Part shown: piece by piece, positions 4,921-31,313 of the stretch
Layout: each line of letters begins with the position of its first letter
Numbering within the stretch: the stretch's first letter is position 1
Program-made: the position numbers and the translations under genes
Notes under the pieces: model-generated
What the model was told of the DNA's origin: nothing
The model's database searches: none
Seen by the model: only the letters and a program-made list of their open reading frames with translations
Source of the DNA: an uncultured Caryophanales bacterium
GTDB taxonomy: Bacteria; Bacillota_I; Bacilli_A; RF39; UBA660
DNA length: 45,827 nucleotides
Assembly: GCA_947089915.1 (NCBI GenBank)
Contig: CAMUMB010000005.1
Coordinates: 1 to 45,827, forward strand
Direction: 5' to 3'

Positions 4921-4948
4921 AAAAAAGAAATCCTTGTTATGGGATTCC
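4921..4948 (-). terminator. Intrinsic terminator ending the T4SS-like operon
   Basis: On the minus strand a 7-bp stem GGAATCC / GGATTTC (one G.U pair, 8-base loop) is followed by TTTTTT. It sits directly after the VirD4-type gene and marks the end of the long operon that starts near 18270. Confidence 0.75.
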
Positions 4949-4954
4949 TACTAA

Positions 4955-7072
4955 TTATTCATCATCAGAGAAAAAGTCATCAAAGAATTGATCATCCGTA
5001 ATTTCTCGTGTTTCTATCGTTTTTGGTTTGGAAACTTCTTTTACTTCTTCTTTCATTCCTTCTGGCTTTTCTTTTTTCGCTTGTTCTTCTTTTTCTCGAC
5101 GTTCTTCTTCCTCTAATTCCGCTATTTTGGCATCGATTCTTTTTACCAAATCATCTACATTAAATGGAGACTTATTATTGGCCTGTGCATTGGGCATTGA
5201 TGGCATTCCCGACATGGAAGGCATGCCCATTCCTGGCATTGGTGGCATATTCATACCTGGCATGCTAGGCATCCCGGGCATAGATGGCATACCCATTCCT
5301 GGCATTGGTGGCATATTCATACCACCATTTCCATTTAACATATCATTAATTTTCTTCTGCCTTTTTTCATCTACAACTTTCTTTAAATCAAACATTTTTA
5401 CTTCCTGTTTTTCACGCTCAGGATATTCGGATTTACCATACTCATGTCCCCAAAGACCTTCCTGTACCATCTTATAGTTTGGCGTTAATGTCGTCTTAAA
5501 TGGCATGCATCTTGTACGTAATACAATCATAGATCCAAATTTCATACGTTGTAAATCACTGACTGTAACCAAAGGTGTACTTGCGGTTTTATCATCTTTT
5601 TTCGATTTAACCTCTCCACACATTTTACTAATTTCTTCTAAGGCAGCAAGTTCGCTACTGATTAAATAGATAATATTTCCACAGTTTCCTTTGATTGTTT
5701 CTCCATTTTCTTTCCCATACACTTGATAAAGTTGAGCAAAGTTTTGAATGATAAAAGTGAAACGAATAGAACGACTACGAGCTGCAGTAACCATTGTTGT
5801 AACATCTTTCAGTGGTGGCATATTCGCAAACTCATCCAATATAAAGTTGGTACGATATGGTAATTTTCCACCAGTTTCTTGCGCAACACGAATTAATGTT
5901 TCGTAACACTGCTTTAAGAAAATTGTTACCAATGAATGGTATGTTTTCTTTTCATCTTGAATAACAATAAATACTGCAGTTTTTTTACGTCCAATTTCTT
6001 CCATATCGAAATCACTATGTGATAACATTTCAGATAAATTTTCTCTCGATGAAAACAGTTTAATCTTTTGTTTGAATACAGATAAAATACTACCTTTGGT
6101 ATCAGATGGTGCAAGTAAGGTACTCGCAACGTTCACATAAGCTGGAGAACTTTGATCCTTATCACTAAAGTATTCCTTCATGTATGTAGTTCCACCAATT
6201 TTTTCTTCTCCAACGGTTGTCATTAAGTTAATACTATTTAGATTAATCTTATCTTCTGTTGTATCGTCAAACAAAGCAAGCGCGAGTCCTGCAAAATAAT
6301 CCGCAGAAGTATTTTCCCAGAATGGATCATTATTCTTAGAAGATTCATCATATAGAATGTTTTTCGCTAAGTCGTCTAGTAACTCGTTTGCCTTGTCAGA
6401 ATTACCACTTTTGTATAATGTATATGGTAATGTAAGTGGATTCCAACAATTTCCTTTTTGTGGATCACGGAAGTTCAAAAGAACAATATTATATCCTCTT
6501 TCACGTAATTCATTGGCATTATTTTCATAGATTTCACCTTTAGGATCGGTGATGATCATCGATTCTCCTTTTTTTGCCAAAATTTTTACCATCGGTTGTA
6601 CCAACATTTCAGTCTTACCAGAACCAGTACTACCAATAACTAGATTGTGATATTCTCCATCATCTACCCATAGTTCATGCCCATTGTTCATTAATGGGAT
6701 TCCCGCACTATCACTTTTTTCATCATGTGGATGGACTAATTTCAATTGATTTTGCATTTCTTTATCTTTTGCCCATCTAGAGTATCCTTTTTCTTTTTTC
6801 TCAGTTGTAGTAATTCCGATTCCCTTTTCTCTTTCAAAGAAGTAGGAAGACACTCCTGTAATAATCGCAATCATAAAAGCAATATAGAAAACCATTGTGG
6901 GTGCAAAATACTCTTTTGTAAATGCTGGGAATGGATTCAATCCATGGAATGTAGACTCTTGTGCAAAAGTAGCTACATTCAAAACTGCAATCGCAACAAA
7001 ATAAAGCAACACAATAGAAAATATTACAAATATTAAAATGTCTTTTGGTTCTGCTCTAAATTTTAATTTCAT
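4955..7072 (-). CDS. VirD4/TraG-type type IV secretion coupling ATPase
   Basis: 705 aa. Two N-terminal membrane helices (about 11-33 and 58-77) precede a cytoplasmic ATPase with Walker A GSTGSGKT (147-154), the SMIITDPKGEIYE block and Walker B NFILDEFANMPPLKD, followed by RSIRFTFIIQNFAQL. These are hallmarks of the VirD4/TraG coupling proteins that bring substrates to a type IV secretion channel. A Met/Pro/Gly repeat (22-residue unit, two copies) and an acidic tail rich in Glu and Lys follow the ATPase domain and are unusual. It is the last gene of the operon, 11 bases after the lipoprotein gene. No relaxase is encoded nearby, so what it recruits is open. Confidence 0.93.
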   Translation of the reverse strand: MKLKFRAEPKDILIFVIFSIVLLYFVAIAVLNVATFAQESTFHGLNPFPAFTKEYFAPTMVFYIAFMIAIITGVSSYFFEREKGIGITTTEKKEKGYSRWAKDKEMQNQLKLVHPHDEKSDSAGIPLMNNGHELWVDDGEYHNLVIGSTGSGKTEMLVQPMVKILAKKGESMIITDPKGEIYENNANELRERGYNIVLLNFRDPQKGNCWNPLTLPYTLYKSGNSDKANELLDDLAKNILYDESSKNNDPFWENTSADYFAGLALALFDDTTEDKINLNSINLMTTVGEEKIGGTTYMKEYFSDKDQSSPAYVNVASTLLAPSDTKGSILSVFKQKIKLFSSRENLSEMLSHSDFDMEEIGRKKTAVFIVIQDEKKTYHSLVTIFLKQCYETLIRVAQETGGKLPYRTNFILDEFANMPPLKDVTTMVTAARSRSIRFTFIIQNFAQLYQVYGKENGETIKGNCGNIIYLISSELAALEEISKMCGEVKSKKDDKTASTPLVTVSDLQRMKFGSMIVLRTRCMPFKTTLTPNYKMVQEGLWGHEYGKSEYPEREKQEVKMFDLKKVVDEKRQKKINDMLNGNGGMNMPPMPGMGMPSMPGMPSMPGMNMPPMPGMGMPSMSGMPSMPNAQANNKSPFNVDDLVKRIDAKIAELEEEERREKEEQAKKEKPEGMKEEVKEVSKPKTIETREITDDQFFDDFFSDDE
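5190..5321 (-). repeat. 66-bp tandem repeat, two copies, inside the coupling-protein gene
   Basis: Two adjacent 66-base units code for a 22-residue Met/Pro/Gly/Ser repeat built from MPGM and MPSM motifs. A 38-base core at 5221-5258 and 5287-5324 differs by one base. The units are in frame, so copy-number change would preserve the protein. Confidence 0.85.
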
Positions 7073-7083
7073 ACCTTAACCTC

Positions 7084-7713
7084 CTAAATTTTGTTATTTT
7101 TTTGTTTTTTTACTAATACAACTAACAAAATTATTATAGCTATAATAACAGTTATTCCTAAAATAATCAAGCCCATATTGTTCTCTTTTATCTCTTTTGA
7201 AAAGCGAATTTGAATTGGCTTATTACTTGCATTGTCCACTGTAATATTCCATATGTATATTCCATTTTCTACAGAGTCTGCATTATGAGAAAGCACCTTA
7301 TGGTTAGTTTTAATCTTAATTTTAAGCTCATCAATATACATGTATTCAAAAGGATTACAAGAAAATATTTCACTCGTTGTAAGATCATAATAATCCCCAT
7401 TTTCTATAAAATTGTATGCGGTATAACACTGATTTAATAGTAGAGAATTTTTATAGGTGGATACATTATATTTTTGGGATAATTGTATCTTCTTATTATT
7501 TTGTTTAATTTGATATAATTGATTTTCACTTTCTGGATACATATGTAATTTTAGCATTTCACTTATTTCTTCTTTTGTCATATCACTACCTGTTGCATCA
7601 ATAGAAATATTCTCTAATAAATTATTATTTTGAAAATTTAATGTGTAATCTACAGAACAACCTGTAACTAAAAGCAAAAGAAGGCTCAACACAACTATTT
7701 TGATTTTTCTCAT
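7084..7713 (-). CDS. Lipoprotein with C-terminal membrane helix, T4SS-operon member
   Basis: 209 aa. The start is a lipoprotein signal peptide (MRKIKIVVLSLLLLLVTGC) with lipobox VTGC, Cys19 being the predicted acylated residue. An extracellular domain of about 155 residues follows, then a hydrophobic helix near residues 179-201 and a short Lys-rich cytoplasmic tail. It is therefore anchored twice. The outline resembles LppM-like lipoproteins, but I cannot assign it. It lies 9 bases after the SpoIID-CHAP gene and 11 bases before the VirD4-type gene, so it is probably a surface component of the same machine. Calling it a VirB7 analogue would be speculation from position only. Confidence 0.75.
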   Translation of the reverse strand: MRKIKIVVLSLLLLLVTGCSVDYTLNFQNNNLLENISIDATGSDMTKEEISEMLKLHMYPESENQLYQIKQNNKKIQLSQKYNVSTYKNSLLLNQCYTAYNFIENGDYYDLTTSEIFSCNPFEYMYIDELKIKIKTNHKVLSHNADSVENGIYIWNITVDNASNKPIQIRFSKEIKENNMGLIILGITVIIAIIILLVVLVKKQKNNKI

Positions 7714-7722: not shown

Positions 7723-9918
7723 CTATCCTAATAGATATACATATCCATTAAAAGTATACACATCTCCACTATTATTTGTATGTCGTTTTATATAATCTAT
7801 TGACCTAGTAACTGTTTGATAACCAACGGTTGACCATGATGAGCTATTCCAACTACCGCTTTTCCAACCTTCTGATATCGTTACAGTACCATCAGCATTG
7901 ACAGATTCAATAATAGCAACATGCCCACACGCAGGACTACAAGCATTTAATCCACCTGACCATGACACAATAGCACCAGCGCGTGGTTGATTTACATCTT
8001 GTGATTTTGCAAATATAGTACCATCTGGACTGCGATACCATGCCTCTCCATTTCCTAATGTACTCTTGATAGAATTTATTGCTCTTTGTTTTAAATCATC
8101 TGGCATATTAGAATAATATAATATCTCCTGTGCTCTATTTTTTGCATACCATACACATTGTCCTGTTAAATGTCCAATGTTTGGATAAAATCCGCTATTT
8201 ATTAAATCCGTTGCATTCGAATGAAGTGGCGCGGTACTTGTATATCTTGTTCCTTGTATCATGCCACTTGCTGATCCACTTGTCACCGTTAAATTAGAAA
8301 TTGTAACTCCATCGGAATAGAAGAAATCTAAAATTTCACGATAATTTTTTCCAGAAAATGCCATATCTGCAGCAGCAATTTGACTCATTCCATTTCCATG
8401 ACCACCTGCCACACGGCCTAAATATTCATCTGTAATCGTAACTTGATGTTTTTCGCCACTTGGCAATTTTGTATAAGTACAAGTATTTTGTCCTTTGCAG
8501 GCCCACGAATCATATTGTGACGAGAAAACCTTACCAGAACTATCCACTAAAATTTGTCCAGCTGTAGCACTAGCTGCTTCTCTTGCGGTAGCATTAATAT
8601 TTGAAGTGAAGTTTTGTCGATAAGAGCTACTTTCGATGGAACGCTGGCAATAATTGGTACTATTTAATACATAAGTTCTTGCTACAACAGCTAATGCCTT
8701 TTTTGACTCTATTGGGAAATCTTCATACATCTCGGCAGCTATGACACCTGCCACATAATCTTCCAAAGAATAGGTCCCAATAATATTATTATTTTGATCT
8801 ACTACAGTAACACCAGAGCACTCTGTATAAATGATATTGCCACCCGAGTTGATTCCAATATCGTTAGTCTCTTCTATCATTTTCTCATAAATAGTTGCCT
8901 TTTCTTCATAGGATAGACCAATACCTAAATCTTCACGAAATTGATCAATATATCCACCAACTCGAATGATTTCTTCTTTAAAATTATCTAAAGGTATACT
9001 TTTACAAAACGTATCATCTTCCAAGTCATCCTCTGATTCATCATTGCTTGTAAGCATTGATTCTACCAAATAATCCATTTCTTCTAAATAATGATTAAAT
9101 AATTCATTATTCACAACTTCTGAAGACAAAAGTTCATCTGTAGATCTATTATAAAACATTACGCCTATTAAAGCCAAAGTATTTGTCGGCTCTAAGGAAT
9201 TGCATCCACTGGTTTCTTGTAATCTCTTTTCTATTTTATTGCGAAATTGAAAAAAGAAATTATAGGCAATACAATCATCGGTATCATCACACCAACCGCC
9301 ACGTCTCAAATACTTCATTAAATTTTCTTTAGAGCCTTCATTCGTTTCTACCACCCCATAAGAAAGATAGGTTGCCATCTCATTGAGGCCATTCTCATCT
9401 TTTCCATCACCCAAGGGTACAATTATGATCAGAATAAAGAAGATAATGATGACAAATGGGAAAACACCAAAAATAAGCCTAGAAAGAATTGGATTATCTG
9501 TAATATACTTTGGAAAGATTCCTGTAAATTCTAGAATTCTTTGGGATAATGTTTTAGGCATAATCCCATTCATTAAATTTAAAACACCCTCATTTTCCGT
9601 TTCTTTTTGTTCTTCTTCTGCCGTGCCCTCAAATTGACCTTCTTCATTCTCACTTTGATTTAGAATATTTTCATCATGATTTTGATTGAAAGCTTCTCCA
9701 TCTTCTTGCATATTACCTATAGGCAAAATTGCATTTCGATGTTGATTTAGGGTATTTTGCAATCTTGTTTCAGTATCATCATGTTGTGAAAAAGGAGTTT
9801 GGAAAGATTGATGATGATTTCGTACTTGCGCAAGTGGATTATTGCCATCTTCAGAAGACAACTCAAGAGCTACCTTCTGTAGCTCTTTCTCTTTTCTATT
9901 TTGCTCTTCTTGATTCAT
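7723..9918 (-). CDS. Membrane-anchored SpoIID + CHAP bifunctional cell-wall enzyme
   Basis: 731 aa. A Gln/Asn/Glu-rich cytoplasmic region (1-140) is followed by one membrane helix (about 149-169) and an extracellular part. Residues about 375-540 match SpoIID/LytB transglycosylases: YSLEDYVAGVIAAEM with the candidate catalytic Glu396, ALAVVARTYVL, and GGHGNGMSQ with His507. Residues about 575-731 form a CHAP amidase/endopeptidase: GQCVWYA with Cys588 and ACGHVAII with His666. Conjugative systems need a wall hydrolase of the VirB1 or Tn916 Orf14 kind. Here the usual lysozyme plus NlpC/P60 pair is replaced by SpoIID plus CHAP. The region from 171 to 370, with several cysteines, is unassigned. 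The position inside the T4SS-like operon supports local opening of the wall for the channel. Confidence 0.9.
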   Translation of the reverse strand: MNQEEQNRKEKELQKVALELSSEDGNNPLAQVRNHHQSFQTPFSQHDDTETRLQNTLNQHRNAILPIGNMQEDGEAFNQNHDENILNQSENEEGQFEGTAEEEQKETENEGVLNLMNGIMPKTLSQRILEFTGIFPKYITDNPILSRLIFGVFPFVIIIFFILIIIVPLGDGKDENGLNEMATYLSYGVVETNEGSKENLMKYLRRGGWCDDTDDCIAYNFFFQFRNKIEKRLQETSGCNSLEPTNTLALIGVMFYNRSTDELLSSEVVNNELFNHYLEEMDYLVESMLTSNDESEDDLEDDTFCKSIPLDNFKEEIIRVGGYIDQFREDLGIGLSYEEKATIYEKMIEETNDIGINSGGNIIYTECSGVTVVDQNNNIIGTYSLEDYVAGVIAAEMYEDFPIESKKALAVVARTYVLNSTNYCQRSIESSSYRQNFTSNINATAREAASATAGQILVDSSGKVFSSQYDSWACKGQNTCTYTKLPSGEKHQVTITDEYLGRVAGGHGNGMSQIAAADMAFSGKNYREILDFFYSDGVTISNLTVTSGSASGMIQGTRYTSTAPLHSNATDLINSGFYPNIGHLTGQCVWYAKNRAQEILYYSNMPDDLKQRAINSIKSTLGNGEAWYRSPDGTIFAKSQDVNQPRAGAIVSWSGGLNACSPACGHVAIIESVNADGTVTISEGWKSGSWNSSSWSTVGYQTVTRSIDYIKRHTNNSGDVYTFNGYVYLLG

Positions 9919-9944: not shown

Positions 9945-11729
9945 TTAAAATCCACCGCCACTACCAAAGGAATCTAATTCTTGTTCTGTTGCGATAATAC
10001 TAATTTGCATTCTTCTACTACCGCAAACAAATAATGCATCTCCCTGATTGTAACGTTTAATATTTTCTTTTTCATTGTCGTTTAAGTCAATCAATTTTGA
10101 CAAATCTTCAACTGCTTGTTTTTTTAGCCCCATTACTAAGTAATAAGAAGCGTTATCAAAGATTGCTTTTCCTTGTGTGATCACACTTGGATCACTAAAG
10201 TCACTTGGTTGTTGTGTAATAATAATTGTTCCCGTATTATATTTTCTAGATCTTCTTTGAATTTGGGCTAAGAAATCAGCTCCTAATGTATTATTCCCAG
10301 AAAGTAAAACATGCGCTTCATCTACCATTAATACGGTATTAACTCTTTTGTCTAAAGTAAGCCCCCAAGCATATTTTAAAATATTGAAAAATAGTGCATT
10401 TCTGATATTAGAGTCTGCATTCATTAATTCACGGATATTGAATACAATAAAATTACTTTGTGGAGCAATTGTTGTATGCCCATCAAAATAATACTTCAAT
10501 TCTTTTACAATTGGACGAATTTTTAACTCTAATTTTTCCATGATATCCTTTTCATGAGTAGGCTCTGTCATAGAAGCTAGGCGACCCTTTATCGTTGCAT
10601 ATACATCTTTGAATGTTGGATAGTCTTCTGAACGGAGATTCGTAAAATCAGATTCAAACCCAATGCTAAAACGTTTATACGTCTCTTGTACGACTTCACT
10701 AAACATATTGAGTACATCTTCTTCAATTTTTGGATCATAATATTTCATAAATGCTTTAATACTTTGTAATGTTCTTGTCAGTACAGTATAGCCAAGTCCA
10801 CTAGCTGCTTCTTCATCATCCGCATCAATAATCACTTCAAGTGGATTTACCATACCATACTCTCCACCTTTTCCAAGGTCGATAAAGTCTCCTCCATAAC
10901 GAGTAGTCATTTCTTCTAACTCTCCTTCTGGATCAATAATCACTAATTGACAATTGTTACGAATATGAGTCCTTAACATCAATTTGGCAGCAGTTGATTT
11001 CCCACTTCCAGAGGTTCCTAGGATAATTAGGTTTGCATTATTTCGATTATGTTCTTTACGAATTTGATATAAGAACTGATTGAATAATATAACTCCTCCT
11101 GAAAAATCGACTCCAAGCAGGGTAGATAAACCAGGGTCTTTGATACTATCAAAGATAAAAGGATACATTGCAGCAATTGTAGGGGCAGGAATTGGTGTTC
11201 CAATGCGAGATTCAATATCTTGTTTAGGAAAAATTGGTAATATCGATTTTAATACTTTTTCCTGTTCAAATCTTAATGGGAAAGCGCGCATTTCCATTGC
11301 CTCTAAATAACTTCTGACCTGTAATTTTTTGCTCGTTAATTCATCTTCGCTATCAGCAGTAATCATAACATGCATTTGAAAGTCGTATATTTTTGCCTGT
11401 GTTGCTGCCAATTGGGAGATAAATTGTTCTAATGATTCATAGTCCTGACGAATTCTTTCTTGTAAGGTACGATCATTGGAATCTTGATATCTCTGCTTTA
11501 AATCGGCAATTTCTTTATTTAGCATTTTACTAATGACACTAAAAGGTAGTGGAATATGTTTAATGACTACTTTAATTCCTGACATACTTGTTAAAGAAGA
11601 AAGATATCCAGGTTGGATGTATTTTGGATAAGATACAACGGTTAATATGGTTGCATATTTATCACTAATAATAAAAGAATTGGATTTAAATTCAAGCCCC
11701 TTTGGAGCAATTTGACTCTTTACATCCAT
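9945..11729 (-). CDS. VirB4-type ATPase, main part with motor domain
   Basis: 594 aa. It begins with DVKSQIAPKGLEF, the boundary that in single-chain Gram-positive VirB4 proteins leads into the linker before the motor. Walker A GTSGSGKST is at 238-246, with Walker B TVLMVDEAHVLL about 466-477 and the GTIIITQQPSDF block after it. VirB4 powers assembly of type IV secretion systems at the inner face of the membrane. The missing N-terminal domain is encoded by the preceding gene, which ends in a TAATG overlap with this start; GGTGGTGG in front can serve as ribosome site. Together the two pieces total 777 residues, near the size of a whole VirB4. Confidence 0.93.
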   Translation of the reverse strand: MDVKSQIAPKGLEFKSNSFIISDKYATILTVVSYPKYIQPGYLSSLTSMSGIKVVIKHIPLPFSVISKMLNKEIADLKQRYQDSNDRTLQERIRQDYESLEQFISQLAATQAKIYDFQMHVMITADSEDELTSKKLQVRSYLEAMEMRAFPLRFEQEKVLKSILPIFPKQDIESRIGTPIPAPTIAAMYPFIFDSIKDPGLSTLLGVDFSGGVILFNQFLYQIRKEHNRNNANLIILGTSGSGKSTAAKLMLRTHIRNNCQLVIIDPEGELEEMTTRYGGDFIDLGKGGEYGMVNPLEVIIDADDEEAASGLGYTVLTRTLQSIKAFMKYYDPKIEEDVLNMFSEVVQETYKRFSIGFESDFTNLRSEDYPTFKDVYATIKGRLASMTEPTHEKDIMEKLELKIRPIVKELKYYFDGHTTIAPQSNFIVFNIRELMNADSNIRNALFFNILKYAWGLTLDKRVNTVLMVDEAHVLLSGNNTLGADFLAQIQRRSRKYNTGTIIITQQPSDFSDPSVITQGKAIFDNASYYLVMGLKKQAVEDLSKLIDLNDNEKENIKRYNQGDALFVCGSRRMQISIIATEQELDSFGSGGGF

Positions 11730-12280
11730 TATGCCACCACCGTTCCAAACGTCGTTGCTTGTCCACCATTTAAGAAATTATCAAGTACAATTCGTAAGTC
11801 ATCATTACTCACCTGATGTGTATTTAACCCAGCACTAGCGAATGCATTAATCAAACTACGAATTCTTTTGGAGATAACCTCATTATTTGATTCCTTAAAT
11901 AATAGAAAGTATTCTGTATCTACAATATTGTTATTCATAAATAAATTGGCTTTATTGATATCTTCCATAATCAATTTTCTTTTTACTTGATCATTTACTG
12001 AATTAAATAACAACTGTAATTGTGATAAATATACATTGATATCTACTGGACGATCCGCAGCAATAATCCAAAATTCATAATCAATTAAATTGTATACATT
12101 TTTTAAATTATTAATGATTGCTGTTTGTGTTTCATAATCTGCGATGAAAATATTTCTTGGCATGATTTTAATTCCACTTACTTTTTCATTGTTATCTAAA
12201 ATAATCATACCATTTGTAATACTTTTCACTGGAACAAATTGTTCTGTATATTTATTTCTTATCTTCTTGTTTTTCTTCAT
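11729..12280 (-). CDS. VirB4 N-terminal domain as a separate protein
   Basis: 183 aa that correspond to the N-terminal domain of VirB4/TraE ATPases (start NKYTEQFVPVKSITNG, then GIKIMPRNIFIADYETQ). No P-loop is present. Its stop overlaps the start of the motor-domain gene as TAATG, which suggests translational coupling and a two-polypeptide VirB4. A single missing base could equally have split one gene; see the finding. Its first 29 bases overlap the end of the PrgI gene, a compact arrangement common in conjugation operons. Confidence 0.8.
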   Translation of the reverse strand: MKKNKKIRNKYTEQFVPVKSITNGMIILDNNEKVSGIKIMPRNIFIADYETQTAIINNLKNVYNLIDYEFWIIAADRPVDINVYLSQLQLLFNSVNDQVKRKLIMEDINKANLFMNNNIVDTEYFLLFKESNNEVISKRIRSLINAFASAGLNTHQVSNDDLRIVLDNFLNGGQATTFGTVVA

Positions 12281-12572: not shown

Positions 12573-12589
12573 TTATCCATCCCCTTTTA

Positions 12590-14515: not shown

Positions 14516-14530
14516 TTATTTGCACCTCCC

Positions 14531-16038: not shown

Positions 16039-16126
16039 TTTAAAACCTCCTATAATTCTTATTTGAAACAAGGAAACTTGCTTCTTTCTTATTCACTATA
16101 CCCTTTTTTCCTTTTTTTGTCAATGT

Positions 16127-21680: not shown

Positions 21681-21702
21681 AAAAAGAAATCTTTCGATTT
21701 CT
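21681..21702 (-). terminator. Terminator at the end of the tad operon
   Basis: On the minus strand AGAAATC and GATTTCT form a 7-bp stem around a GAAA loop, followed by TTTTT. It overlaps the region just past the tadC stop. Confidence 0.85.
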
Positions 21703-21703
21703 C

Positions 21704-23404: not shown

Positions 23405-24523
23405 TTATTCATATGAAATATTTTGATTTGTGGTTACTTGTTGTTGATTGTTCACATTATTTTGTGAAGTTGCTTGTATTACATTAGGTGATAAAATAAC
23501 ACCTTGTGAATCTAGGTAATCAAGTAAATATTTAGAAGGTTGATTTCTAATAACTTTACCTGATGTTGATTTTTGATAAATTGTATTATATTTCGCTTCA
23601 TTGTTCTCTGTTACATAGAATTCTGTTACTTCGGCAATTTCACGGACAAAACGTTTGGTTTCTTTATCTTGATATCCACGAATATAAACGCCTATTTGGA
23701 TATAACGGTAAATTGTTTTTAAGAATTGGTCAATATCTTGGCTTGTCTCTAACAAGCTATACATACGATGTGGAATAGAAGATGCTTTATCTGCATGAAT
23801 TGTAGATAAAATGTAGTGTCCAGATGAAATAGAGTTACGAACTGCCATTACTGCTTCTGCACTACGTACTTCGGATAATAATATCCACTTTGGATTTTGT
23901 CTCATACAAGTTACCAATACATCTGTATATGAAGCTATATTATTGGTTTTCATCGCAACGATATCACGATGTGGAAAAATTCGGTCTAAATGAAGTTCTA
24001 GTGTATCTTCCACTGTAATGATCTTCTCATTTTCTCTCGTATGAGAAGCTAAGTATTTAATAAATTCGGTCTTACCTGAACCAGTTTCCCCACATACAAT
24101 AATATTGCAATGTCCTAAAACACACTGTATTAGAAAATCATGGATATCTAAATCAACGTATTTGTCTTGTAACAATTTGTCTTTCTCAAGTCTTATTTTG
24201 GCTGGAGTTTTACGAATTACACAAGCAATTCCATTACGAGCAATGGACTCATGAATAAAATTGAGACGTAATTCAGCACCCTCTGCATCCAAGAAGGGAT
24301 GTGCCATATTGAATGACTTTCCCATTACATTGGAACATTGAAATGCTAATTTTTCCATTAATGCATCATTAATATCTGGATTTTCAACACGAAAATTTCC
24401 TTTGGATAATGTTTTTAAATGAATTTGTCCACCATTACTGTAGGAAATATCAGTAATGTCATCATCCTCTAAATAAGGTTTGATAGGCCCAAAATCAATT
24501 TGGGAGAACATATTATCATTCAT
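23405..24523 (-). CDS. tadA: TadA/CpaF-type secretion ATPase
   Basis: 372 aa. Walker A GETGSGKT lies at 145-152, with the Asp box ITVEDTLEL, a Walker B region (PKWILLSEVRSAEA) and the His box GHYILSTIHADKA. These define the VirB11/GspE/TadA hexameric ATPases, and the context with CpaB, TadB and TadC places it in the TadA/CpaF branch. It powers pilin polymerisation at the inner membrane. The C-terminus is an Asn/Gln-rich tail. Note that the T4SS-like operon has no VirB11 of its own, which fits Gram-positive systems but also allows sharing. Confidence 0.9.
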   Translation of the reverse strand: MNDNMFSQIDFGPIKPYLEDDDITDISYSNGGQIHLKTLSKGNFRVENPDINDALMEKLAFQCSNVMGKSFNMAHPFLDAEGAELRLNFIHESIARNGIACVIRKTPAKIRLEKDKLLQDKYVDLDIHDFLIQCVLGHCNIIVCGETGSGKTEFIKYLASHTRENEKIITVEDTLELHLDRIFPHRDIVAMKTNNIASYTDVLVTCMRQNPKWILLSEVRSAEAVMAVRNSISSGHYILSTIHADKASSIPHRMYSLLETSQDIDQFLKTIYRYIQIGVYIRGYQDKETKRFVREIAEVTEFYVTENNEAKYNTIYQKSTSGKVIRNQPSKYLLDYLDSQGVILSPNVIQATSQNNVNNQQQVTTNQNISYE

Positions 24524-24526: not shown

Positions 24527-25336
24527 TTAACCTTCTACTTGCCCCATTGCTGCAGTTAATTCATCATTTGGAACAGTATTGGCATTGATAAAGTCTCTTA
24601 AAGTTTGTGAACTTACCATAGTGCTTCCCTCTGGTACTACCGCAGTTCCACCATGTGGTACTGGGAATAATTCAGCTGAGAAAGCAGTCATGTATTTTCC
24701 TTTTAATAATAATACGTTAATTTCTGGTTGTACTCCAAAGATTAAACTACTTGGTGTACGAGCTTCATCGCTATTTTCAAATACATTTCTTCCTGCAGAA
24801 TCTTTTACAGCTAATACTTTTACGTTTTCTACTAATTTACCAACCATAAGCTGTCCATTTTCATTTACAGCTTTCATGTAAATATCAATGTAATTTCCAG
24901 GAAAAATTGAATTTCCATAAGTTTTATCCATTGTAACAGCCATATTGTAAGGAACTTCTCCATCGGCTACTTCCACAAATGCGGAATCTGGTAAATCAGC
25001 TTCATTTACTACAACTCCACTATAGAACATACTTCCTTTTGGAATTACAGTATTGTAGTTGCTATATTTACCAATCACAAATGCGGATGAACGAATTACG
25101 TTACTCTGTAACACAACTGGTGCTACATCGACATATTCGATCATGTCAGATGTAATTCTTGTTCTTGGTTGAATGGTCTGTGCTGCTACTGGTATTCTTC
25201 TCACTGGATTTACCATTCTGTTAATTTGGATACGATATCCAAAAAATAGGACTAAGATAATCGCGATTACTCCAATAATCGTAACTGTGTTTTTGTTTCT
25301 AAAAAATCTTTTTAATGCAATCATAAAATTATTCAT
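24527..25336 (-). CDS. cpaB: CpaB/RcpC-like SAF-domain pilus assembly protein
   Basis: 269 aa. One membrane helix (about 17-34) is followed by a SAF domain (PVAAQTIQPRTRITSDMIE, then the FVIGKYSNYNTVIPKGSMF block) and a C-terminal beta-rich domain (AVTMDKTYGNSIFPGNYIDIYM). CpaB/RcpC proteins sit outside the membrane and help assemble or stabilise Tad pili, perhaps by binding the cell wall. It lies 3 bases before tadA. Confidence 0.82.
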   Translation of the reverse strand: MNNFMIALKRFFRNKNTVTIIGVIAIILVLFFGYRIQINRMVNPVRRIPVAAQTIQPRTRITSDMIEYVDVAPVVLQSNVIRSSAFVIGKYSNYNTVIPKGSMFYSGVVVNEADLPDSAFVEVADGEVPYNMAVTMDKTYGNSIFPGNYIDIYMKAVNENGQLMVGKLVENVKVLAVKDSAGRNVFENSDEARTPSSLIFGVQPEINVLLLKGKYMTAFSAELFPVPHGGTAVVPEGSTMVSSQTLRDFINANTVPNDELTAAMGQVEG

Positions 25337-25352: not shown

Positions 25353-25754
25353 TTAATATGGTGTTTCTAAAATCGCATCCAATCGATTGGAAATATCAAA
25401 ATCGATAATTTCTTCTGTGACATTGGACTGTAATTTAGTGGAAACCCTCAAACTTACTTTTGGAGGTGTTTCATTTACATCATATATTTCAACTTTATAA
25501 GTATTTCCTATGGTTACACTTTCTGCAAACCTCCTTATAAAGTTTTCAACAAATTTTTCACGATCGATACGAACAGTACCGGTTCTACGATAAGAGGCTA
25601 AGTCAACAGCGTCATACATAGCCGCTTCTGTAATTTCTTTTAATAAGATATAGTTTTGTTCATCTGTATTGGTGACATTTTGGAAAAAGAAGATAAAAGC
25701 AACTGATGTAACACCAAGTAAGATGACAAATATACCCCAAAACGATTCTTTCAC
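25353..25754 (-). CDS. Pseudopilin/TadE-like single-helix protein
   Basis: 133 aa. Starts MKESFWGIF and has an N-terminal membrane helix (about 6-25) and a soluble domain with two helices (EITEAAMYDAVDLASYRR; DREKFVENFIRRFAESV) and strands. The shape fits TadE-like pseudopilins, and the position before cpaB supports it. Its MKES start and helix recall the 140-aa protein of the other operon, although the soluble domains differ and cysteines are absent. Confidence 0.62.
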   Translation of the reverse strand: MKESFWGIFVILLGVTSVAFIFFFQNVTNTDEQNYILLKEITEAAMYDAVDLASYRRTGTVRIDREKFVENFIRRFAESVTIGNTYKVEIYDVNETPPKVSLRVSTKLQSNVTEEIIDFDISNRLDAILETPY

Positions 25755-25766: not shown

Positions 25767-28700
25767 CTAACTTTCTGAACATGCATAGAAATCACTATGC
25801 TGACTTGAGCCACATACACTTTCATTTTTTTGAATTCCATATATTTCGTTTCTTACAAATTCTTTACTAATACATGCAACCCCATTGGTATCACAATCTA
25901 AGGTGAAGTCTGCATAACCCTCATTATTTTCACGAGAATCATTATATTTACGTATTTCTTTAATGGTATTGGTATCTAATATAAAGGTATAAAGTGGATC
26001 TTTCTGATAAACGGCGTTACCCTCTACACCACGGTTTTTTAATATTTGGGTTTCTACTAATTTTACACTATTCCAGTTTGATCCTGGATATCTTCCTATA
26101 TGTGGATCTAGACTAAACTTATTGGTAGTATTACCTACTCCTGAGCCAGCTGTTTTCCCTGGGAATGGATTTCTAAGTGAAATAGTTCTATAAATGATGT
26201 TAATTCCACCATAAGGACAAACAGTATCCTGACAAATTTTAACTGCCTCATCTTTCGAATATCCTGAACTCATATAACTAAATACACAAGGTTTAATATT
26301 CATTCCATCATTATATGTTCCATGTGGACAATGGAAATCCTCATTTATATTACATAAGGTACTCACACAATAATCGTAGCTTTTTCCATTATTTAAACAA
26401 GAAGTAATTTTAATCGTTCTATCATTTGGACAAAACTTGTCATCCTCACATACTTCGTCAAATGTCTCGTCACTATCACAATATAAAATTTGAGCATCAG
26501 CACACGTAATCGTTGTAGAACTACTATTAGATCCATATATCTTACAATATAAATCTTTTCCTGCATGTTTTGTTCCCTCTGGGCAAACACACTCATCAGT
26601 AGGTGCATTTGTTACAGAATAATTACATACATATGGATTTTGATTCGCAAGTTCTGTAAATTTTCCGTTTTCTCCTAAACTATTTACTGTAATATTTAAG
26701 TCATATGGATTCTTTACACTTGCTGTAGAAGATATTGGTAAATTACTATATCCAATTTTAATATAGTCAACAGTTGGGATACTCATTGATGGTTTATTTG
26801 TTCTTTTCTCTACATAATGATATAAATTGTCTGGTAAAGAATAGGTTGCGGTTGCTGTAATTGTAATTGGTCTATCTTCAATTAATCGCACGATCTGTTG
26901 AAATTGAGCCCCTAAGCCTATGCGAGATGGCAAATCAGAAATTGTATAAGTTTTTAAAACATCTGAATGTTGACGTACATACTCTGTTGCGTCACATCCC
27001 TCACATCCAAAACTCTGACCTGACAACTTTAGTTGATGGGTTGTTCCATATTCTGGATCATTATATGACATAGATGTATCACTTTCAAAAGAATATAAGT
27101 CAGATGGATCCCATTTTGTTTTTCCTGCATATACAATATTGTTTAAAAATTCGGTTGCCCCATTATATGCATTAATATAGTTTTTACAAACATTAATTTT
27201 AGCATTAATAGCATTTAATTCGTTCTGCTTTTTATTCACTAATGCTTCACGTTGACTTTTTTCATTATTAGTACATGTAGATGTTGTTGTTGTAACATTA
27301 TTAGTTGGATATGCGCCATCGCAATAATTTATACAATCAGTGTATGTTTCTGGAGTATGAGGAGTGTTAGCACATGCAACTTTACAATTATTTCTACCTT
27401 CAGAATTTTGATCTACTGTATTGGTTACTGTTGTACATTTATCTAACTCAGCTCTTGCTTCTTCTAATTCTCTCTGGCTTTTTAATTGTTGATCTCCATA
27501 TGCACGATCTCCAATAAATGCGCAAGCATCTTCGGTTGCAAGTCCTTTGCTATCTATTTTTCCTCTTGCCGCAAGTGTTGTTCTTATATTTTCAAGTTCC
27601 CATACATAATCAATACCCCTAACTGTTTGGTTTATGTTATTTATATGTGCTTGGAACGTTTCTTCCATATTTTCATCAGACTTTGTATTTGGTGAAAACT
27701 TAATTTTACAAGTTTTGATTCCTTCATAACTTAAAGAATATAAATTACCCCATATTGTATTTAATGTTGCTGTAGATGTTGGCCACACAATGTGTGTTCC
27801 AACAGGTACTGGGTTAGCAATGCCCCCAGGATAATATTGATATGCTTCCTCTTTGCAGTATAACCATGCAACACTTCCGTCTCCAATCATTCTTGTGGGT
27901 TCTCCGTCCTCACTCGCGTTGCCACACTCGCTTCCATCTAATTCTTGCCAATAATGTCCAACGTGTGTTTGATTATCATTTGCACAAACTGCAGGTGTTC
28001 CTATAGTTTTTAATACACCACCTCTACAAACAGGAGCTGGTGGCTCAGAGCAAAAATGTTCTTTACATGCTTCTTCATCCATATTGCCACAATCTGATAA
28101 GTAGTGCGCATTTCCATTATTATCTGTACAAACATAATCATTGGCATCATCAGGACAATATTGAGTTGCACACTCAACACGACATTCCGTCATTTTACTT
28201 GGGTTCCCATTCATACAACTAGTGACACAACTTGTAATATCGACATCCTGCATGGTTGGATCTGTGCATGTTATATTTTGCGGACAATACAAACTTTTAC
28301 AATAATTTTCTTCCTTGCCACTATTCACACAAGAAGTAATATCATGCGATACATTATTTACATCTGTACAAGTCTTTTTTTCTGTACAAGGATCACCAGT
28401 AATAATTGTTAAAAAGCGTTGATAGTATCCTCCATTTTTATGATGATAAAAATAAAGATTTCCCATATACATTGTTCCTATATTTAATATTTTTTCAAAG
28501 TCATCTATAGCTTCTTTTGTTAAATTTTGACTTTTATCATTACTATAATGTCTAACTTCAACATAATAACTCATCAATGCATTTGACACATTTCCTTTAA
28601 ATAAAGTTTTATCAAAACCTGACATTCCATCTGCTCTTAGCCAAAAATATACTTGAGTGACTAGATATTTTACCTGTCCTATTTCACTACCTAAATTCGC

Positions 28701-29000
28701 ATTTAATATATATTGAACGGCTCTTCTATCTCTATCATTTATTATTAACGGTAATTGATTATTATTTCTATAATATGCATTTTTCGTTGGGTCGACACTA
28801 TATCCTGGGTTTAAACATAATGCTACAGCAGAACTCTTACTATCTGATATTTTTTCAATATACAGAGTTTTTTTACTATTTTTATAACTAAACTCTATTT
28901 GCGTCTTTCTGGGCTCTAGTGTCGCACAAAAATCTTCCGCCCCTACATTCACTGTAAACACTGCTAAAAAGATAGTAAATGCTATTAATATTTTTTTCAT
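25767..29000 (-). CDS. Giant cysteine-rich secreted protein with probable thioester domain
   Basis: 1077 aa with a signal peptide (about 1-21). Residues 22-190 look like a Cys-Gln thioester (TQXA) domain: AVALCLNPG with Cys62 and YLVTQVYFW with Gln116 match the two halves of that signature. Such domains bind host or matrix amines covalently. The rest carries many cysteines in loose repeats; a DITSCVNSG or KITSCLNNG-type motif occurs at least three times. Stretches rich in CTD, YCP and CPNG follow, with a helical region near 470-600. There is no LPXTG motif or C-terminal membrane helix, so it is either released, held by the pilus or bound to the 214-aa partner encoded upstream. It is probably the tip adhesin or a large pilus component. 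Confidence 0.7.
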   Translation of the reverse strand: MKKILIAFTIFLAVFTVNVGAEDFCATLEPRKTQIEFSYKNSKKTLYIEKISDSKSSAVALCLNPGYSVDPTKNAYYRNNNQLPLIINDRDRRAVQYILNANLGSEIGQVKYLVTQVYFWLRADGMSGFDKTLFKGNVSNALMSYYVEVRHYSNDKSQNLTKEAIDDFEKILNIGTMYMGNLYFYHHKNGGYYQRFLTIITGDPCTEKKTCTDVNNVSHDITSCVNSGKEENYCKSLYCPQNITCTDPTMQDVDITSCVTSCMNGNPSKMTECRVECATQYCPDDANDYVCTDNNGNAHYLSDCGNMDEEACKEHFCSEPPAPVCRGGVLKTIGTPAVCANDNQTHVGHYWQELDGSECGNASEDGEPTRMIGDGSVAWLYCKEEAYQYYPGGIANPVPVGTHIVWPTSTATLNTIWGNLYSLSYEGIKTCKIKFSPNTKSDENMEETFQAHINNINQTVRGIDYVWELENIRTTLAARGKIDSKGLATEDACAFIGDRAYGDQQLKSQRELEEARAELDKCTTVTNTVDQNSEGRNNCKVACANTPHTPETYTDCINYCDGAYPTNNVTTTTSTCTNNEKSQREALVNKKQNELNAINAKINVCKNYINAYNGATEFLNNIVYAGKTKWDPSDLYSFESDTSMSYNDPEYGTTHQLKLSGQSFGCEGCDATEYVRQHSDVLKTYTISDLPSRIGLGAQFQQIVRLIEDRPITITATATYSLPDNLYHYVEKRTNKPSMSIPTVDYIKIGYSNLPISSTASVKNPYDLNITVNSLGENGKFTELANQNPYVCNYSVTNAPTDECVCPEGTKHAGKDLYCKIYGSNSSSTTITCADAQILYCDSDETFDEVCEDDKFCPNDRTIKITSCLNNGKSYDYCVSTLCNINEDFHCPHGTYNDGMNIKPCVFSYMSSGYSKDEAVKICQDTVCPYGGINIIYRTISLRNPFPGKTAGSGVGNTTNKFSLDPHIGRYPGSNWNSVKLVETQILKNRGVEGNAVYQKDPLYTFILDTNTIKEIRKYNDSRENNEGYADFTLDCDTNGVACISKEFVRNEIYGIQKNESVCGSSQHSDFYACSES

Positions 29001-29012: not shown

Positions 29013-29657
29013 CTAAAATAGGCTACTTTTTTTATTATATCGATAAATTATAATAATTCCACCTACAATAAATATTGGTAAAACAATATAATAATAATTT
29101 AAATAGAATTCCAATATATAATCATATATTCCTTCAATATTCTCTTCTTCTTTTTTTTCAATTGGCTTTTCTTCTACTAATTTTAAACTATTTACTTTTT
29201 CTTTAAATTGTTCATAATTAAGATTAATTCTTGTAAATTTTTGACACAATTCGTTTTCTTCCATTCCAATACATACCTCATCTTGATAAAATGGATTGTA
29301 TGGTGGAGTTGTTACATAATGAGAATATAACAAATCATTTCTACAATATATATCATTTGTGTAAACATCAAATCGATAACTTGTATTTGATCTTAAATTA
29401 TAAATTGTAATCTCATTACCTTGATAATTATAGGTTTTATCGTTTTTTGTATCTTTTATGATAAAACCCTCTGGAATATTGGATAGCGTAATTTGAAATG
29501 AAATACGTCCATTTTCTTCGGTATAAGTATAACTAGATGTAATATTGCTCGCTAATGTTTGATATTTTACTTTATCCTCATTGGAACAAATAATTGCCTT
29601 CGTTTGAAACGGCAATAGTAAAATAAATAACCCTAAAAGAATTGGCAGTCGTTTCAT
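29013..29657 (-). CDS. Signal-peptide surface protein with C-terminal membrane anchor
   Basis: 214 aa. A signal peptide (about 1-21) leads to an extracellular domain with a FN3-like strand pattern (GRISFQITLSNIPEGF, then NLRSNTSYRFDVYTN) and several cysteines, a Glu/Lys-rich linker, and a membrane helix (about 187-206) with a short Lys-rich tail. It is first in the operon and 12 bases before the cysteine-rich giant, so the two probably work together at the surface. The family is not recognised. Confidence 0.68.
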   Translation of the reverse strand: MKRLPILLGLFILLLPFQTKAIICSNEDKVKYQTLASNITSSYTYTEENGRISFQITLSNIPEGFIIKDTKNDKTYNYQGNEITIYNLRSNTSYRFDVYTNDIYCRNDLLYSHYVTTPPYNPFYQDEVCIGMEENELCQKFTRINLNYEQFKEKVNSLKLVEEKPIEKKEEENIEGIYDYILEFYLNYYYIVLPIFIVGGIIIIYRYNKKSSLF

Positions 29658-29678
29658 CCTATCTATCCTCTCTTTCTT

Positions 29679-29706
29679 ATTATAACATGAATTCCTTAAT
29701 CTACAA
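29679..29706 (-). promoter_or_regulatory. Extended -10 promoter of the tad operon
   Basis: TTGTAG (29706-29701), 16 bases, then a perfect TATAAT (29684-29679) preceded by TG one base away (extended -10). It lies about 22 bases before the 214-aa gene and separates this operon from the 527-aa gene upstream. Confidence 0.7.
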
Positions 29707-29729
29707 GTGATTATTCAATATTTTTGACA

Positions 29730-31313
29730 TTATTTTACAACAATTTGGTAGATATACTCACGAAATGTGAAAGAAATTGTAATATGTTCTGCATATTCTA
29801 GTTCTTTTGGCACTTCAATGTAATATACATTTCCCTCTGTCTGTCTATTTGGTTTTACCTGTTTCAAATTATGTATCGTTTTTTCTTCCCCATTTATTTC
29901 ATACGTAATCATTCCAAAATCTTTGATTACACTATATAAATCAGATAACTTATGAATATAAGAATTTTCATCTAATGTAAAATTTCCAACCAATTTCATT
30001 AATGTTTTATCATAATTATCACTCATACTTGGTTTAATGTACTCTACTCCTGTAAGACAATTATTATCTGTAATACAATAAATGTAATTATTGATAAAAG
30101 TATCCCCTATTTCATAAGAATCTATCTTGACTTTACTCTTTTTTAAAATACTTTGTGTAAGTGATATCTCTCCACCTAATAAATAAGAAGCAGTGGTTTT
30201 TGTTGAATCATCAATTGGTGTAATCAATGTTTCAATTACTTTATCATTTTTATCTTGATATTTTAAAATTATTTTTTCTGTATTCAATTCTTTTGGTAAT
30301 TCATAGACTAGTATATATGGTTCAAATGTAGTTGTCATATATTCATTATGATAAATATTTCCAAGATCATACATTACTTCTTTGTAATTATCACTTGCAT
30401 GAAAAGAAGTATTTCCAATCATTAAAGTAAAACGAGATGGATTAAATACTTTCTTATTTACCTGATAATTCGAACGAATTTGATATTGAATCACCAAAAA
30501 CTTTTTATCCTTTTTAATTTCTTCATTATGATAACTTCTTGTTGTAAGATAACTATTTTCTATATTTATCATAAATTCGGTTGTCGTAAATGCTTCATTC
30601 TGTTTATATATTTTATGATATACTCCTACATTTAAATAAACAACTGCACAAATAACAGCAATAACAAGTAAGGCAATCATATGGATCATAAACTTATTTT
30701 CTATATATACATATTTCGCATGTCTTATTTTTTTACGTATATTTCTTTTTAATTGATCCGTATCTAATTCTACGTCTATTTCAAATTCTTCATTATCTTC
30801 AGATGCGATTTTTAAATCTTCTAAATCCTGATCAAAATCAAATTTTTTAATATTAAATCCTGTTGCACGCATTGCAACTACAATTAAACTTAGTGATTGT
30901 ACAATTAATGCGAATAAGCAAAGATCTTGCATTATTTTTAGGGTTCTTATACTCAGTAAGCCAGATTCTAATATTTTGATATTGGTATAACAGTATATAA
31001 ATACAAATGTCATAAAACTATATACAAATATATTGAATACATAAAAGCGAATTGGCTTTTTTTTGAAACTCATTAGTCCTAAAATAACAAATGTTAAAAT
31101 AAGTACACCAATAATAACAATTATCATAATAGGTGAAAATAAATTAGATGTAATGTTGGTTCCAATGGTAGATAAATTTGAACTCATATATTCGCTAATG
31201 AATCTGAAAATCGTATTGGTTTTGAGCAATAAATATACAATCATAATTGTTAAGGTAAAATGAATTACTTTGAAATACTTAATTAAAAATGCAAATGGTT
31301 TTCTAAATAACAT
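29730..31313 (-). CDS. Polytopic membrane protein with large extracellular domain
   Basis: 527 aa when started at ATG 31313, which has an AGGAAGGTGG site; an open frame extends 45 codons further upstream but lacks a ribosome site. Five membrane helices lie in the first 150 residues, then a charged cytoplasmic stretch (DQDLEDLKIASEDNEEFE), another helix (HMIALLVIAVICAVVYLNV) and about 290 extracellular residues with beta character and a Cys pair (ITDNNC). I do not recognise a family. It points the same way as the tad operon and ends 72 bases before its first gene, so a supporting role is possible but not shown. TATACT lies just upstream near 31340 as a possible -10. Confidence 0.65.
   Translation of the reverse strand: MLFRKPFAFLIKYFKVIHFTLTIMIVYLLLKTNTIFRFISEYMSSNLSTIGTNITSNLFSPIMIIVIIGVLILTFVILGLMSFKKKPIRFYVFNIFVYSFMTFVFIYCYTNIKILESGLLSIRTLKIMQDLCLFALIVQSLSLIVVAMRATGFNIKKFDFDQDLEDLKIASEDNEEFEIDVELDTDQLKRNIRKKIRHAKYVYIENKFMIHMIALLVIAVICAVVYLNVGVYHKIYKQNEAFTTTEFMINIENSYLTTRSYHNEEIKKDKKFLVIQYQIRSNYQVNKKVFNPSRFTLMIGNTSFHASDNYKEVMYDLGNIYHNEYMTTTFEPYILVYELPKELNTEKIILKYQDKNDKVIETLITPIDDSTKTTASYLLGGEISLTQSILKKSKVKIDSYEIGDTFINNYIYCITDNNCLTGVEYIKPSMSDNYDKTLMKLVGNFTLDENSYIHKLSDLYSVIKDFGMITYEINGEEKTIHNLKQVKPNRQTEGNVYYIEVPKELEYAEHITISFTFREYIYQIVVK

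Follow-up and report, generated by a model that had tools for sequence, protein, structure and literature searches.

The 45,827-nucleotide stretch analysed here (the window) is contig CAMUMB010000005.1 (C5) of the 79-contig draft genome GCA_947089915.1 (1.27 Mb, 91% complete; genome handle G000), from an uncultured Caryophanales bacterium of the RF39 lineage. Between positions 4955 and 31448 it encodes a Tad-type pilus module followed by a type IV secretion system (T4SS) module. We propose, at a probability of about 0.6, that this locus is related to the pLS20-type conjugation operons but has become fixed in the chromosome and is passed on vertically; it would be composed of two separable modules, without a relaxase at the locus. 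The locus is not a unique hybrid; it is a resident, modular version of a conjugation machine. All machine genes are on the minus strand, running from 29730..31448 down to 4955..7072 with the Tad part first. In that order the features are:

29730..31448, minus strand: membrane protein with a large ectodomain, first gene of the Tad operon; relatives beside Tad genes in L075 and L088, no Pfam match.
29013..29657, minus strand: secreted protein with a C-terminal transmembrane segment (TM); its family recurs 5' of Tad genes, no Pfam match.
25767..29000, minus strand: large secreted surface protein, 1077 aa, candidate thioester (TIE-like) adhesin from Cys62 in LCLNP and its position.
25353..25754, minus strand: DUF5411 pilin-like protein (PF17424 E 5e-54).
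24527..25336, minus strand: CpaB, SAF domain (PF16976 29.2 bits, cut-off 28.8).
23405..24523, minus strand: TadA/VirB11-type ATPase (PF00437 E 3e-27).
22489..23391, minus strand: TadB-like platform protein (family profile).
21704..22489, minus strand: TadC-like platform protein (position and family profile).
18316..20730, minus strand: yfhO, between the modules and not a part of the machine (PF09586 E 7e-154).
18057..18239, minus strand: Flp-like pilin, leader MKEVTG, 60 aa (PF07790 E 0.0099, below cut-off).
17587..18036, minus strand: pseudopilin-like protein, leader MRQAIG (N-terminal TM; weak plasmid matches of its family profile).
17153..17575, minus strand: pseudopilin-like protein (position; N-terminal TM after a short leader).
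16127..17134, minus strand: TadZ-like protein of the Tad module (remains beside tadABC where the modules are separated; no Pfam match).
15697..16071, minus strand: VirB2-like pilin, 124 aa (PF18895 E 0.016, NF045849 0.023, both below cut-off).
14531..15589, minus strand: VirB2-like pilin domain after a secreted ectodomain, 352 aa (same family as the 15697..16071 gene).
12590..14515, minus strand: VirB6-like polytopic membrane protein (PF19597 1e-5, NF045890 1e-10, NF045889 6e-10, all below cut-off).
12252..12572, minus strand: PrgI/VirB3-like membrane protein (position and family profile; no Pfam or NCBIfam match).
11729..12280, minus strand: N-terminal part of VirB4 as a separate gene, 183 aa (NF045975 positions 92-276, E 1.6e-15).
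9945..11729, minus strand: ATPase part of VirB4, C-terminal gene of the split virB4, 594 aa (NF045975 E 3e-105).
7723..9918, minus strand: membrane-anchored wall hydrolase slot, here SpoIID plus CHAP (PF08486, PF05257).
7084..7713, minus strand: LppM-like lipoprotein with a C-terminal TM, 209 aa (alignment and predicted structure).
4955..7072, minus strand: VirD4-type coupling protein of the CD1115 family, 705 aa, C-terminal part Pro/Met-rich (PF02534 E 7e-57).

A first-pass annotation, which had described a hybrid chromosomal machine, gave the parts apt names, and its observation is confirmed in part. VirD4 (NF045973, 297 bits, above the cut-off of 250), VirB4, VirB6, the SpoIID-CHAP enzyme, TadA and CpaB are recognised by profile, VirB4 and VirB6 with scores under the curated NCBIfam cut-offs. 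The PrgI-, TadB-, TadC-, TadZ-, Flp- and pseudopilin-like proteins gave no relevant match above cut-off in Pfam or NCBIfam and were named from position, from family profiles built from at most 110 members, and from profile matches to conjugation operons. VirB4 is present, as had been reported, but is split into two overlapping genes, which had been missed. The C-terminal gene reaches 353 bits against an NF045975 cut-off of 590, a match of partial length, and full-length resident orthologues have C-terminal gene frames of 593-621 aa. The core of a monoderm T4SS is present (VirD4, VirB4, VirB6, VirB3-like and VirB1-like), the VirB6 and VirB3-like assignments being weak. The Tad genes had been described as interleaved with T4SS genes, but Flp, the two pseudopilins and TadZ form one block ahead of the T4SS genes; between TadC and flp the window has a small open reading frame (ORF) and yfhO. 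A prepilin peptidase, for which a search elsewhere in the genome had been advised, is encoded on contig C38 (5973-6302, PF01478 E 5e-17).

Conservation was assessed in 117 genomes of the order, all of one family and including the window genome, the same set being used for each query. Resident VirB4 and window-type TadA were counted at ≥66% identity, weaker rows being excluded; the VirB4 of G086 and the TadA of G066 are partial, and one of the VirB4s is in two pieces. Resident VirB4 is found in 99/117 genomes and window-type TadA in 98/117, 89 genomes having both, 10 just VirB4, 9 just TadA and 9 neither (Fisher p 2.4e-4), and the co-occurrence persists at genus level (50 both, 6 VirB4 only, 5 TadA only, 6 neither; p 0.0027). 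In a sample of 296 genomes of the class, about 40 of them in the family, a VirB4 search at E ≤ 1e-60 returned the resident form in 35 family members and matches at ≤34% identity in 8 genomes outside it. Additional VirB4 copies in the family genomes are set apart from the resident form (22-36% identity, most of them in frames of ~770-860 aa). The 80 named loci represent the nearest relatives only, and some come from genomes that also have G handles (e.g. L142/G030, L103/G096). They belong to metagenome-assembled genomes (MAGs) titled uncultured Bacilli, Bacillales, Tenericutes, Mollicutes, Erysipelotrichaceae and similar, many with animal-gut names, and one is Candidatus Coprosoma intestinipullorum, placed by NCBI in Bacillota incertae sedis.

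The machine had been called resident, and its descent bears this out. In the 34 genomes for which VirB4, TadA and RpoB had all been fetched, distances correlated with those of RpoB at r 0.80 for VirB4 and r 0.75 for TadA, 0/2000 permutations being as high. VirB4 has 20/31 and TadA 21/31 splits in common with the RpoB tree, and in mean distance VirB4 (0.345) comes close to the conservation of RpoB (0.327). Mob_Pre relaxases from 14 genomes gave r 0.22 with RpoB (Mantel test, 223/5000 permutations); for the 11 of these genomes with VirB4 in hand the values were 0.76 for VirB4 versus 0.18 for the relaxase. Since VirB4 tracks RpoB and the relaxases hardly do, the T4SS is resident and the relaxases are mobile. 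The rate of non-synonymous substitution (dN) is far below that of synonymous substitution (dS) for virB4C, tadA and tadB against a congener, dS being near or above 1 and hence saturated. That the T4SS is a long-inherited, core-like chromosomal part of the family is well supported.

Synteny had been proposed beforehand as a check, together with co-conservation. TadA and VirB4 lie on one contig in 44 genomes, in 38 of which TadA is upstream on the same strand at 6.8-13.2 kb; the order is kept at 21-48 kb in four, reversed at 38 kb in G106, and in the single-contig genome G111 the two genes are 625 kb apart. Many relatives have a super-operon with the 5' half (surface protein)-DUF5411-CpaB-TadA-TadB-TadC-Flp-pseudopilins-TadZ, continued by VirB2-like array-VirB6-PrgI-VirB4N-VirB4C-hydrolase-lipoprotein-VirD4, and because this order recurs across many genera the grouping is beyond chance. 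The yfhO gene is absent between the modules in all 9 linked genomes of one set and present in L102, L104, L105 and L151; in L084 and L232 it adjoins the Tad module.

The modules also occur apart. Among T4SS regions without the full Tad set in view, 30/31 have no Flp, pseudopilin or TadZ genes, the single exception (L074) adjoining Tad genes of its own (L075), and 21/30 Tad regions without a T4SS in view carry them; these genes therefore belong to the Tad module. TadABC without a recognisable Flp or TadZ behind it is found in G002, G058, G024, G090, G101, G106, G111 and G051. Conversely, G023, G089 and G091 keep the T4SS and gave no match at all in a TadA search at E ≤ 1e-3. Eight fetched regions hold both modules, a further one (L231) is cut, and several regions end near a contig edge (e.g. 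L063, L064, L070, L085, L088). Independent carriage of the two operons, named earlier as evidence against a joint machine, is thus found in part of the family, ten genomes having the T4SS only, nine the Tad set only and others both unlinked. A split VirB4 does not mark Tad-linked T4SSs, as stretches of G247, G306 and G353 have a split VirB4 and no TadA match; both relaxases scanned there (L215, L217) are MobL.

The closest kin of the combined locus are Gram-positive conjugation operons. The best plasmid matches of TadA, among the first sixteen, are CpaF/VirB11-type proteins of Gram-positive plasmids at ~29-33% identity. In pLS20 of Bacillus subtilis natto (NC_015148) the 5' part comprises tie, a DUF5411-like gene, an annotated tadA, genes at the TadB and TadC positions and a pseudopilin-like gene, and the 3' part comprises VirD4, VirB6, DUF5592 and, in the place of VirB4, genes of 192 aa and 633 aa; the relaxase of pLS20 is a MobP2. 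Profiles of the window family match pLS20 for DUF5411 (8e-5), TadA (3e-53), TadB (7e-3), TadC (7e-5) and the pseudopilin (1e-2), and likewise for VirD4 (4e-83), VirB6 (1e-7) and VirB4C (1e-53), the VirB6 match being a protein at 19284-22208 annotated as pLS20_p028 family. The split of VirB4 is similar in the two, with 183 + 594 aa in the window versus 192 + 633 aa in pLS20, and in pLS20, pZB18 and the Paraclostridium and Virgibacillus plasmids each VirB4 ATPase gene stands behind a separate gene of ~190-210 aa.

Related neighbourhoods were found on further plasmids. On pZB18 a SpaA-type surface protein, small TM proteins, CpaF/VirB11, two membrane proteins and a small pseudopilin-like protein are followed by VirB2, VirD4, a gene annotated pLS20_p028 family, DUF5592 and VirB4-type genes; the Paraclostridium plasmid has a similar neighbourhood including a 'thioester domain-containing protein', the Virgibacillus plasmid a similar one with DUF4320 and VirB2 genes, and pBS72 a varied order. 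A Priestia plasmid carries surface protein-DUF5411-SAF/CpaB-274 aa-CpaF/VirB11-T2SSF-membrane protein at some distance after genes of the VirD4 and replication-relaxation families, with no VirB4 annotated in the stretches read. A B. velezensis plasmid carries thioester protein-small-CpaF/VirB11-two membrane proteins in a stretch where no T4SS gene is named. The PrgI profile matches DUF5592 proteins of pZB18 (E 2e-6) and the Virgibacillus plasmid (3e-5), and the DUF5411 profile matches a small gene 5' of tadA in Virgibacillus (5e-5) and the Priestia DUF5411 gene (9e-7). TadC matches were obtained in Priestia (1e-17), G121 (2e-12), Paraclostridium (2e-7), Virgibacillus (4e-7), B. velezensis (8e-6) and pZB18 (0.025), and TadB matches in Priestia (7.5e-15, annotated as type II secretion system F family), pBS72 (6e-6), G121 (6e-5), Virgibacillus (4e-4) and Paraclostridium (0.12). 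The profile of the 17587..18036 pseudopilin weakly matches small proteins after the TadC-position gene in six plasmids (E 2e-3 to 0.09).

Twenty ATPases placed in one tree are parted by a 100/100 branch. The six resident TadAs fall on one side, together with seven ATPases from Gram-positive plasmids or conjugation-type elements; the canonical Tad ATPases, including the C6 TadA of the window genome itself and that of Sodalis, fall on the other. In this tree the Thermoanaerobacterium plasmid ATPase was labelled canonical Tad, and those of Priestia and B. velezensis were counted as conjugation-type with no VirB4 named. Tad-type genes and a split VirB4 also occur together in two outgroup elements, one in G121 and one on the zrk4 plasmid of Mycoplasmatota (CP074574). 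In the G121 element (L213, G121:C17:2000-21000), at least five downstream proteins at ~12240-18491, one of them ArdC-like (PF08401), end by eye in a similar tail, FC[DNG]VT...ER, which is a candidate T4SS export signal.

The idea of a hybrid machine is accordingly half right, in that a TadABC-like set is paired with such a T4SS in plasmid operons including pLS20, but the modules are separable in this family. The window shares with pLS20, pZB18 and the Paraclostridium and Virgibacillus plasmids a surface adhesin or fimbrial protein, small pilin-like proteins, TadA, genes at the TadB and TadC positions, VirD4, VirB6, DUF5592 and a VirB4 ATPase gene after a gene of ~200 aa. It differs in that those operons are plasmid-borne with a MOBP relaxase typed on each, give no CpaB, TadZ or Flp match, place VirD4 before VirB6 rather than at the end, and carry a bifunctional lytic transglycosylase/C40 hydrolase where one is annotated. 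Mbov_0397-type integrated conjugative elements (ICEs) of mycoplasmas show VirB4 and VirB6 profile kinship with the window, which scores below the curated cut-offs, but they are mobile and their model spans VirB4 in one piece.

Canonical Tad loci (that on contig C6 of the same genome, and Sodalis pHS1) share Flp, TadE-like, TadA and membrane-platform genes with the window, but the window TadA lies outside their clade and its pilin-like proteins start differently. Tad (Flp) class III prepilins are cut after a Gly and have Glu at +5; the Flp-like pilins of the relatives printed have a MKEATGELNMTVI-type start and keep the cleavage-site Gly, and by eye neither the window protein nor the Flp-like rows printed have Glu at +5. 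The C6 locus (L094 2163-7525) looks canonical, with an Flp containing RGQALVEY, two TadE/F-like proteins, a MinD-like protein, TadA and more membrane proteins (by eye; TadA by search).

The surface protein (LCLNP, Cys62, near the N-terminus) is a candidate thioester (TIE-like) adhesin by its sequence. A [YFL]C-hydrophobic-hydrophilic motif, the form in which the thioester motif is quoted in an excerpt of PMC8092201, occurs within the first 260 aa of 17/27 large surface proteins, at a place judged plausible in 14, a count made without a chance control. Profile comparison with hhalign against five TIE-type or fimbrial N-termini gave a probability of 64.6 with the Cys aligned to the pLS20 Cys, compared with 34.6, 18.7 and 0.9 against three unrelated sets. 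The invariance of Cys62 in a 13-row alignment is by choice, as the rows were picked after the motif had been seen. In pLS20, according to the same excerpt, a thioester adhesin is needed for efficient mating, and its loss lowers mating ~1,000-fold in liquid (PMC8092201).

Between virB4C and virD4, 91/92 loci have an ORF of >300 aa. Scanning 54 of these 91 proteins and the window's own (55 in all, several domains per protein being possible) identified Peptidase_M23 in 24, SpoIID in 23, CHAP in 10, C39_2 in 9, Phage_lysozyme2 in 6, and Glucosaminidase, NlpC/P60 and Amidase_5 in 3 each. Such varied hydrolase domains in one conserved position indicate a VirB1-type slot with fast domain swapping. 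VirB2-like arrays have 1, 2, 3, 4, 5 or 6 copies in 4, 28, 13, 13, 2 and 2 of 62 loci, respectively, and 17/35 proteins scanned, drawn from 173 array genes and including the window's two, match T4SS_pilin (PF18895) at E ≤ 0.01.

An LppM-fold lipoprotein lies between the wall hydrolase and VirD4 in many relatives. The window protein (7084-7713) has an invariant G18-C19 in a 57-row alignment, and its model (predicted local distance difference test, pLDDT, 91) best matches mycobacterial LppM in the Protein Data Bank (Z 10.8 over 142 residues, root-mean-square deviation 3.5). To our knowledge LppM-like proteins are not a described T4SS part. Its assignment as VirB8 is unsupported, no VirB8-like chain being among the structure matches listed, which is no proof of absence.

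No relaxase was matched in the window with PF03432, PF18555, PF02486 or PF01076, other relaxase families not having been searched, and none was recognised inside the fetched T4SS operons. This agrees with the first-pass annotation, which had also found no integrase; none was recognised among the ORFs read, no profile search being aimed at integrases. PF03432, MobL and Rep_trans also gave no match in the window genome, but it has three Mob_Pre (PF01076) matches, which we take to be MOBV relaxases, all on other contigs: C2 (L294 7164-8447), C31 (L295 6467-7747) and C17 (L296 5852-6982). A relaxase-free genome is thereby ruled out. These genes adjoin a serine recombinase or tyrosine integrases, as read from the sequence rather than by profile, and the three loci are likely mobilizable elements. 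Across the 117 genomes Mob_Pre is found in 64, Relaxase (PF03432) in 32, MobL in 14 and Rep_trans in 2. The counts show no association of relaxases with the T4SS: with versus without resident VirB4, Mob_Pre is in 55/99 versus 9/18 genomes, PF03432 in 27/99 versus 5/18 and MobL in 11/99 versus 3/18. By coordinate comparison, the closest listed relaxase to a resident VirB4 is a Mob_Pre 12 kb away (G111:C1:711950-712501); G106, a congener of G111, is not in the Mob_Pre list.

Several results weigh against the reading of the locus as a resident relative of a pLS20-type operon. RpoB itself was found in just 108/117 genomes, so that MAG incompleteness, which affects gene presence, accounts for some VirB4 and TadA absences. 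Six genera have the T4SS without the window-type Tad set, five the reverse and others both unlinked, which makes an obligate single machine unlikely across the family. The comparison of VirB4 and TadA gene trees advised earlier found that both track RpoB, but their covariation beyond RpoB is small (partial r 0.25, 43/2000 permutations). In pLS20 the PrgI and VirB4N profiles have no match, and these genes are placed there by position only; the TadB profile finds none in pZB18 or B. velezensis, nor the TadC profile in pBS72, and the plasmid kinship of TadB and TadC is uneven and leans on position, the TadB match in pLS20 being weak. In the ATPase tree the zrk4 plasmid protein sides with canonical Tad, on a long branch. 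A Pfam scan of the 27 large surface proteins returned no adhesin or thioester domain (TED), and the surface-protein model from the 13-row alignment failed (pLDDT 43) and did not recover a thioester fold. No VirB8-like protein was found by profile, structure having been modelled for 7084-7713 alone, and no substrate was identified.

The strongest competitor, less probable than the preferred reading but to be taken seriously, is that the locus holds two independent machines, an adhesion pilus of Tad type and a T4SS in its own right, side by side by history and without a working link. The occurrence of each module alone in several genera and unlinked in others, the absence of pilins and TadZ from nearly all isolated T4SSs and the small partial covariation are what one would expect of it, but it does not readily account for the TadABC-like set, in the same order, in plasmid conjugation operons including the experimentally conjugative pLS20, or for the arrangement common to 38/44 same-contig genomes. 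That the locus is an ordinary ICE or its remnant, which the first reading had left as an alternative, is very improbable: the T4SS parts are homologous to mobile systems, but no relaxase of the families searched was found in the window, VirB4 is orthologous throughout the family with RpoB-like descent, and the other VirB4 copies of the same genomes are distinct.

A host-encoded helper, in which the resident T4SS would serve as a 'public' conjugation channel for relaxase-carrying elements, is distinctly improbable. The VirD4 belongs to the conjugative CD1115 family, Mob_Pre relaxases are widespread in the family and lie beside integrase or recombinase genes in the window genome, and a strong PF03432 relaxase coexists with resident VirB4 as the sole VirB4 found in G019, G008, G013, G056, G096 and G052. 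However, relaxases are no commoner where resident VirB4 is present, which counts against such a role as the reason for the upkeep of the T4SS, and the fetched T4SS operons have none that was recognised. Somewhat better placed, although still unlikely, is a contact apparatus that takes molecules from other cells or delivers effectors to them, as proposed for Patescibacteria. The chromosomal location, the lack of a relaxase at the locus, the VirB2-like arrays and the nearby pilus-type system suit it, and excerpts of PMC6784871 and PMC13155120 report reduced genomes and auxotrophies for RF39, while an excerpt of PMC12857230 describes a T4SS and type IV pili (T4P) as essential in Southlakia epibionticum; against it, we know of no host or effector, 18/117 genomes have no resident VirB4, and the placement of the family in RF39 is itself inferred.

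The Patescibacteria parallel is what makes the case worth following. As far as the excerpted text of PMC12102498 goes, their T4SSs are chromosomal, mostly relaxase-less and accompanied by VirB2 arrays. With PMC12857230, likewise in excerpt, the common features extend to a monoderm T4SS, T4P and reduced genomes; the differences are the phylum and, in the window family, the Tad-type neighbour and the kept wall hydrolase. IncI plasmids, on which the excerpt of PMC12857230 also touches, share the use of a T4SS and a T4P-family machine for mating, but are Gram-negative, with a Dot/Icm-like T4SS and an unrelated pilus type.

Elsewhere in the window, 37767-41490 holds a gerA/gerC/spore-permease set (PF03323, PF25198/PF05504, PF03845), that is, germination genes in a small genome, and 34805-36038 an AbiEi/AbiEii-type toxin-antitoxin pair (PF13338, PF08843). 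A PD-(D/E)XK nuclease family transposase (PF12784) lies at 43169-44107, and 4012-4863, which has no Pfam match, reads like a relative of it. ComEC was found in 110/117 genomes, the window genome not being among them, and for this reason it neither supports nor excludes a link with competence.

The occurrence of a TadABC-like set with such a T4SS in plasmid conjugation operons including pLS20 makes cooperation of the modules plausible. In the resident relative of these operons that we favour, the Tad-like module (surface protein, pilin-like proteins, CpaB, TadA motor, TadB/TadC platform and TadZ) would build a short filament or pseudopilus that presents the surface protein and makes contact. 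The wall hydrolase would open the wall, by analogy with pLS20, and the T4SS module (VirD4, split VirB4, PrgI-like protein, VirB6, VirB2-like array and hydrolase) would form a channel through it and pass a VirD4-selected substrate to or from an adjacent cell. The substrate may be a protein, or else DNA handled by a relaxase whose gene lies elsewhere. More tentatively, and with the odds well against it, genome-reduced Bacilli may have domesticated a pLS20-type apparatus as a standing contact organ, in which the Tad/adhesin part grips, the hydrolase opens the partner wall and the T4SS moves molecules. If true, this would be a second, independent dependence on a T4SS plus pilus like that of Saccharibacteria, now within Bacillota.

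Tad-like motor and platform genes are a recurrent component of Gram-positive conjugation operons, and the pLS20 record annotates the ATPase as tadA; a literature search found no discussion of this set in such operons, so it seems little discussed, and a search on RF39 with T4SS or Tad found nothing relevant. The recurrence raises the question of whether TadABC powers mating in Gram-positive bacteria, and pLS20 in laboratory B. subtilis provides an experimental system for it. For the large uncultured family to which the window belongs, such an apparatus is a core-like, vertically inherited trait, and this raises the further question of what role a conjugation-type machine without an adjacent relaxase plays in genome-reduced bacteria.

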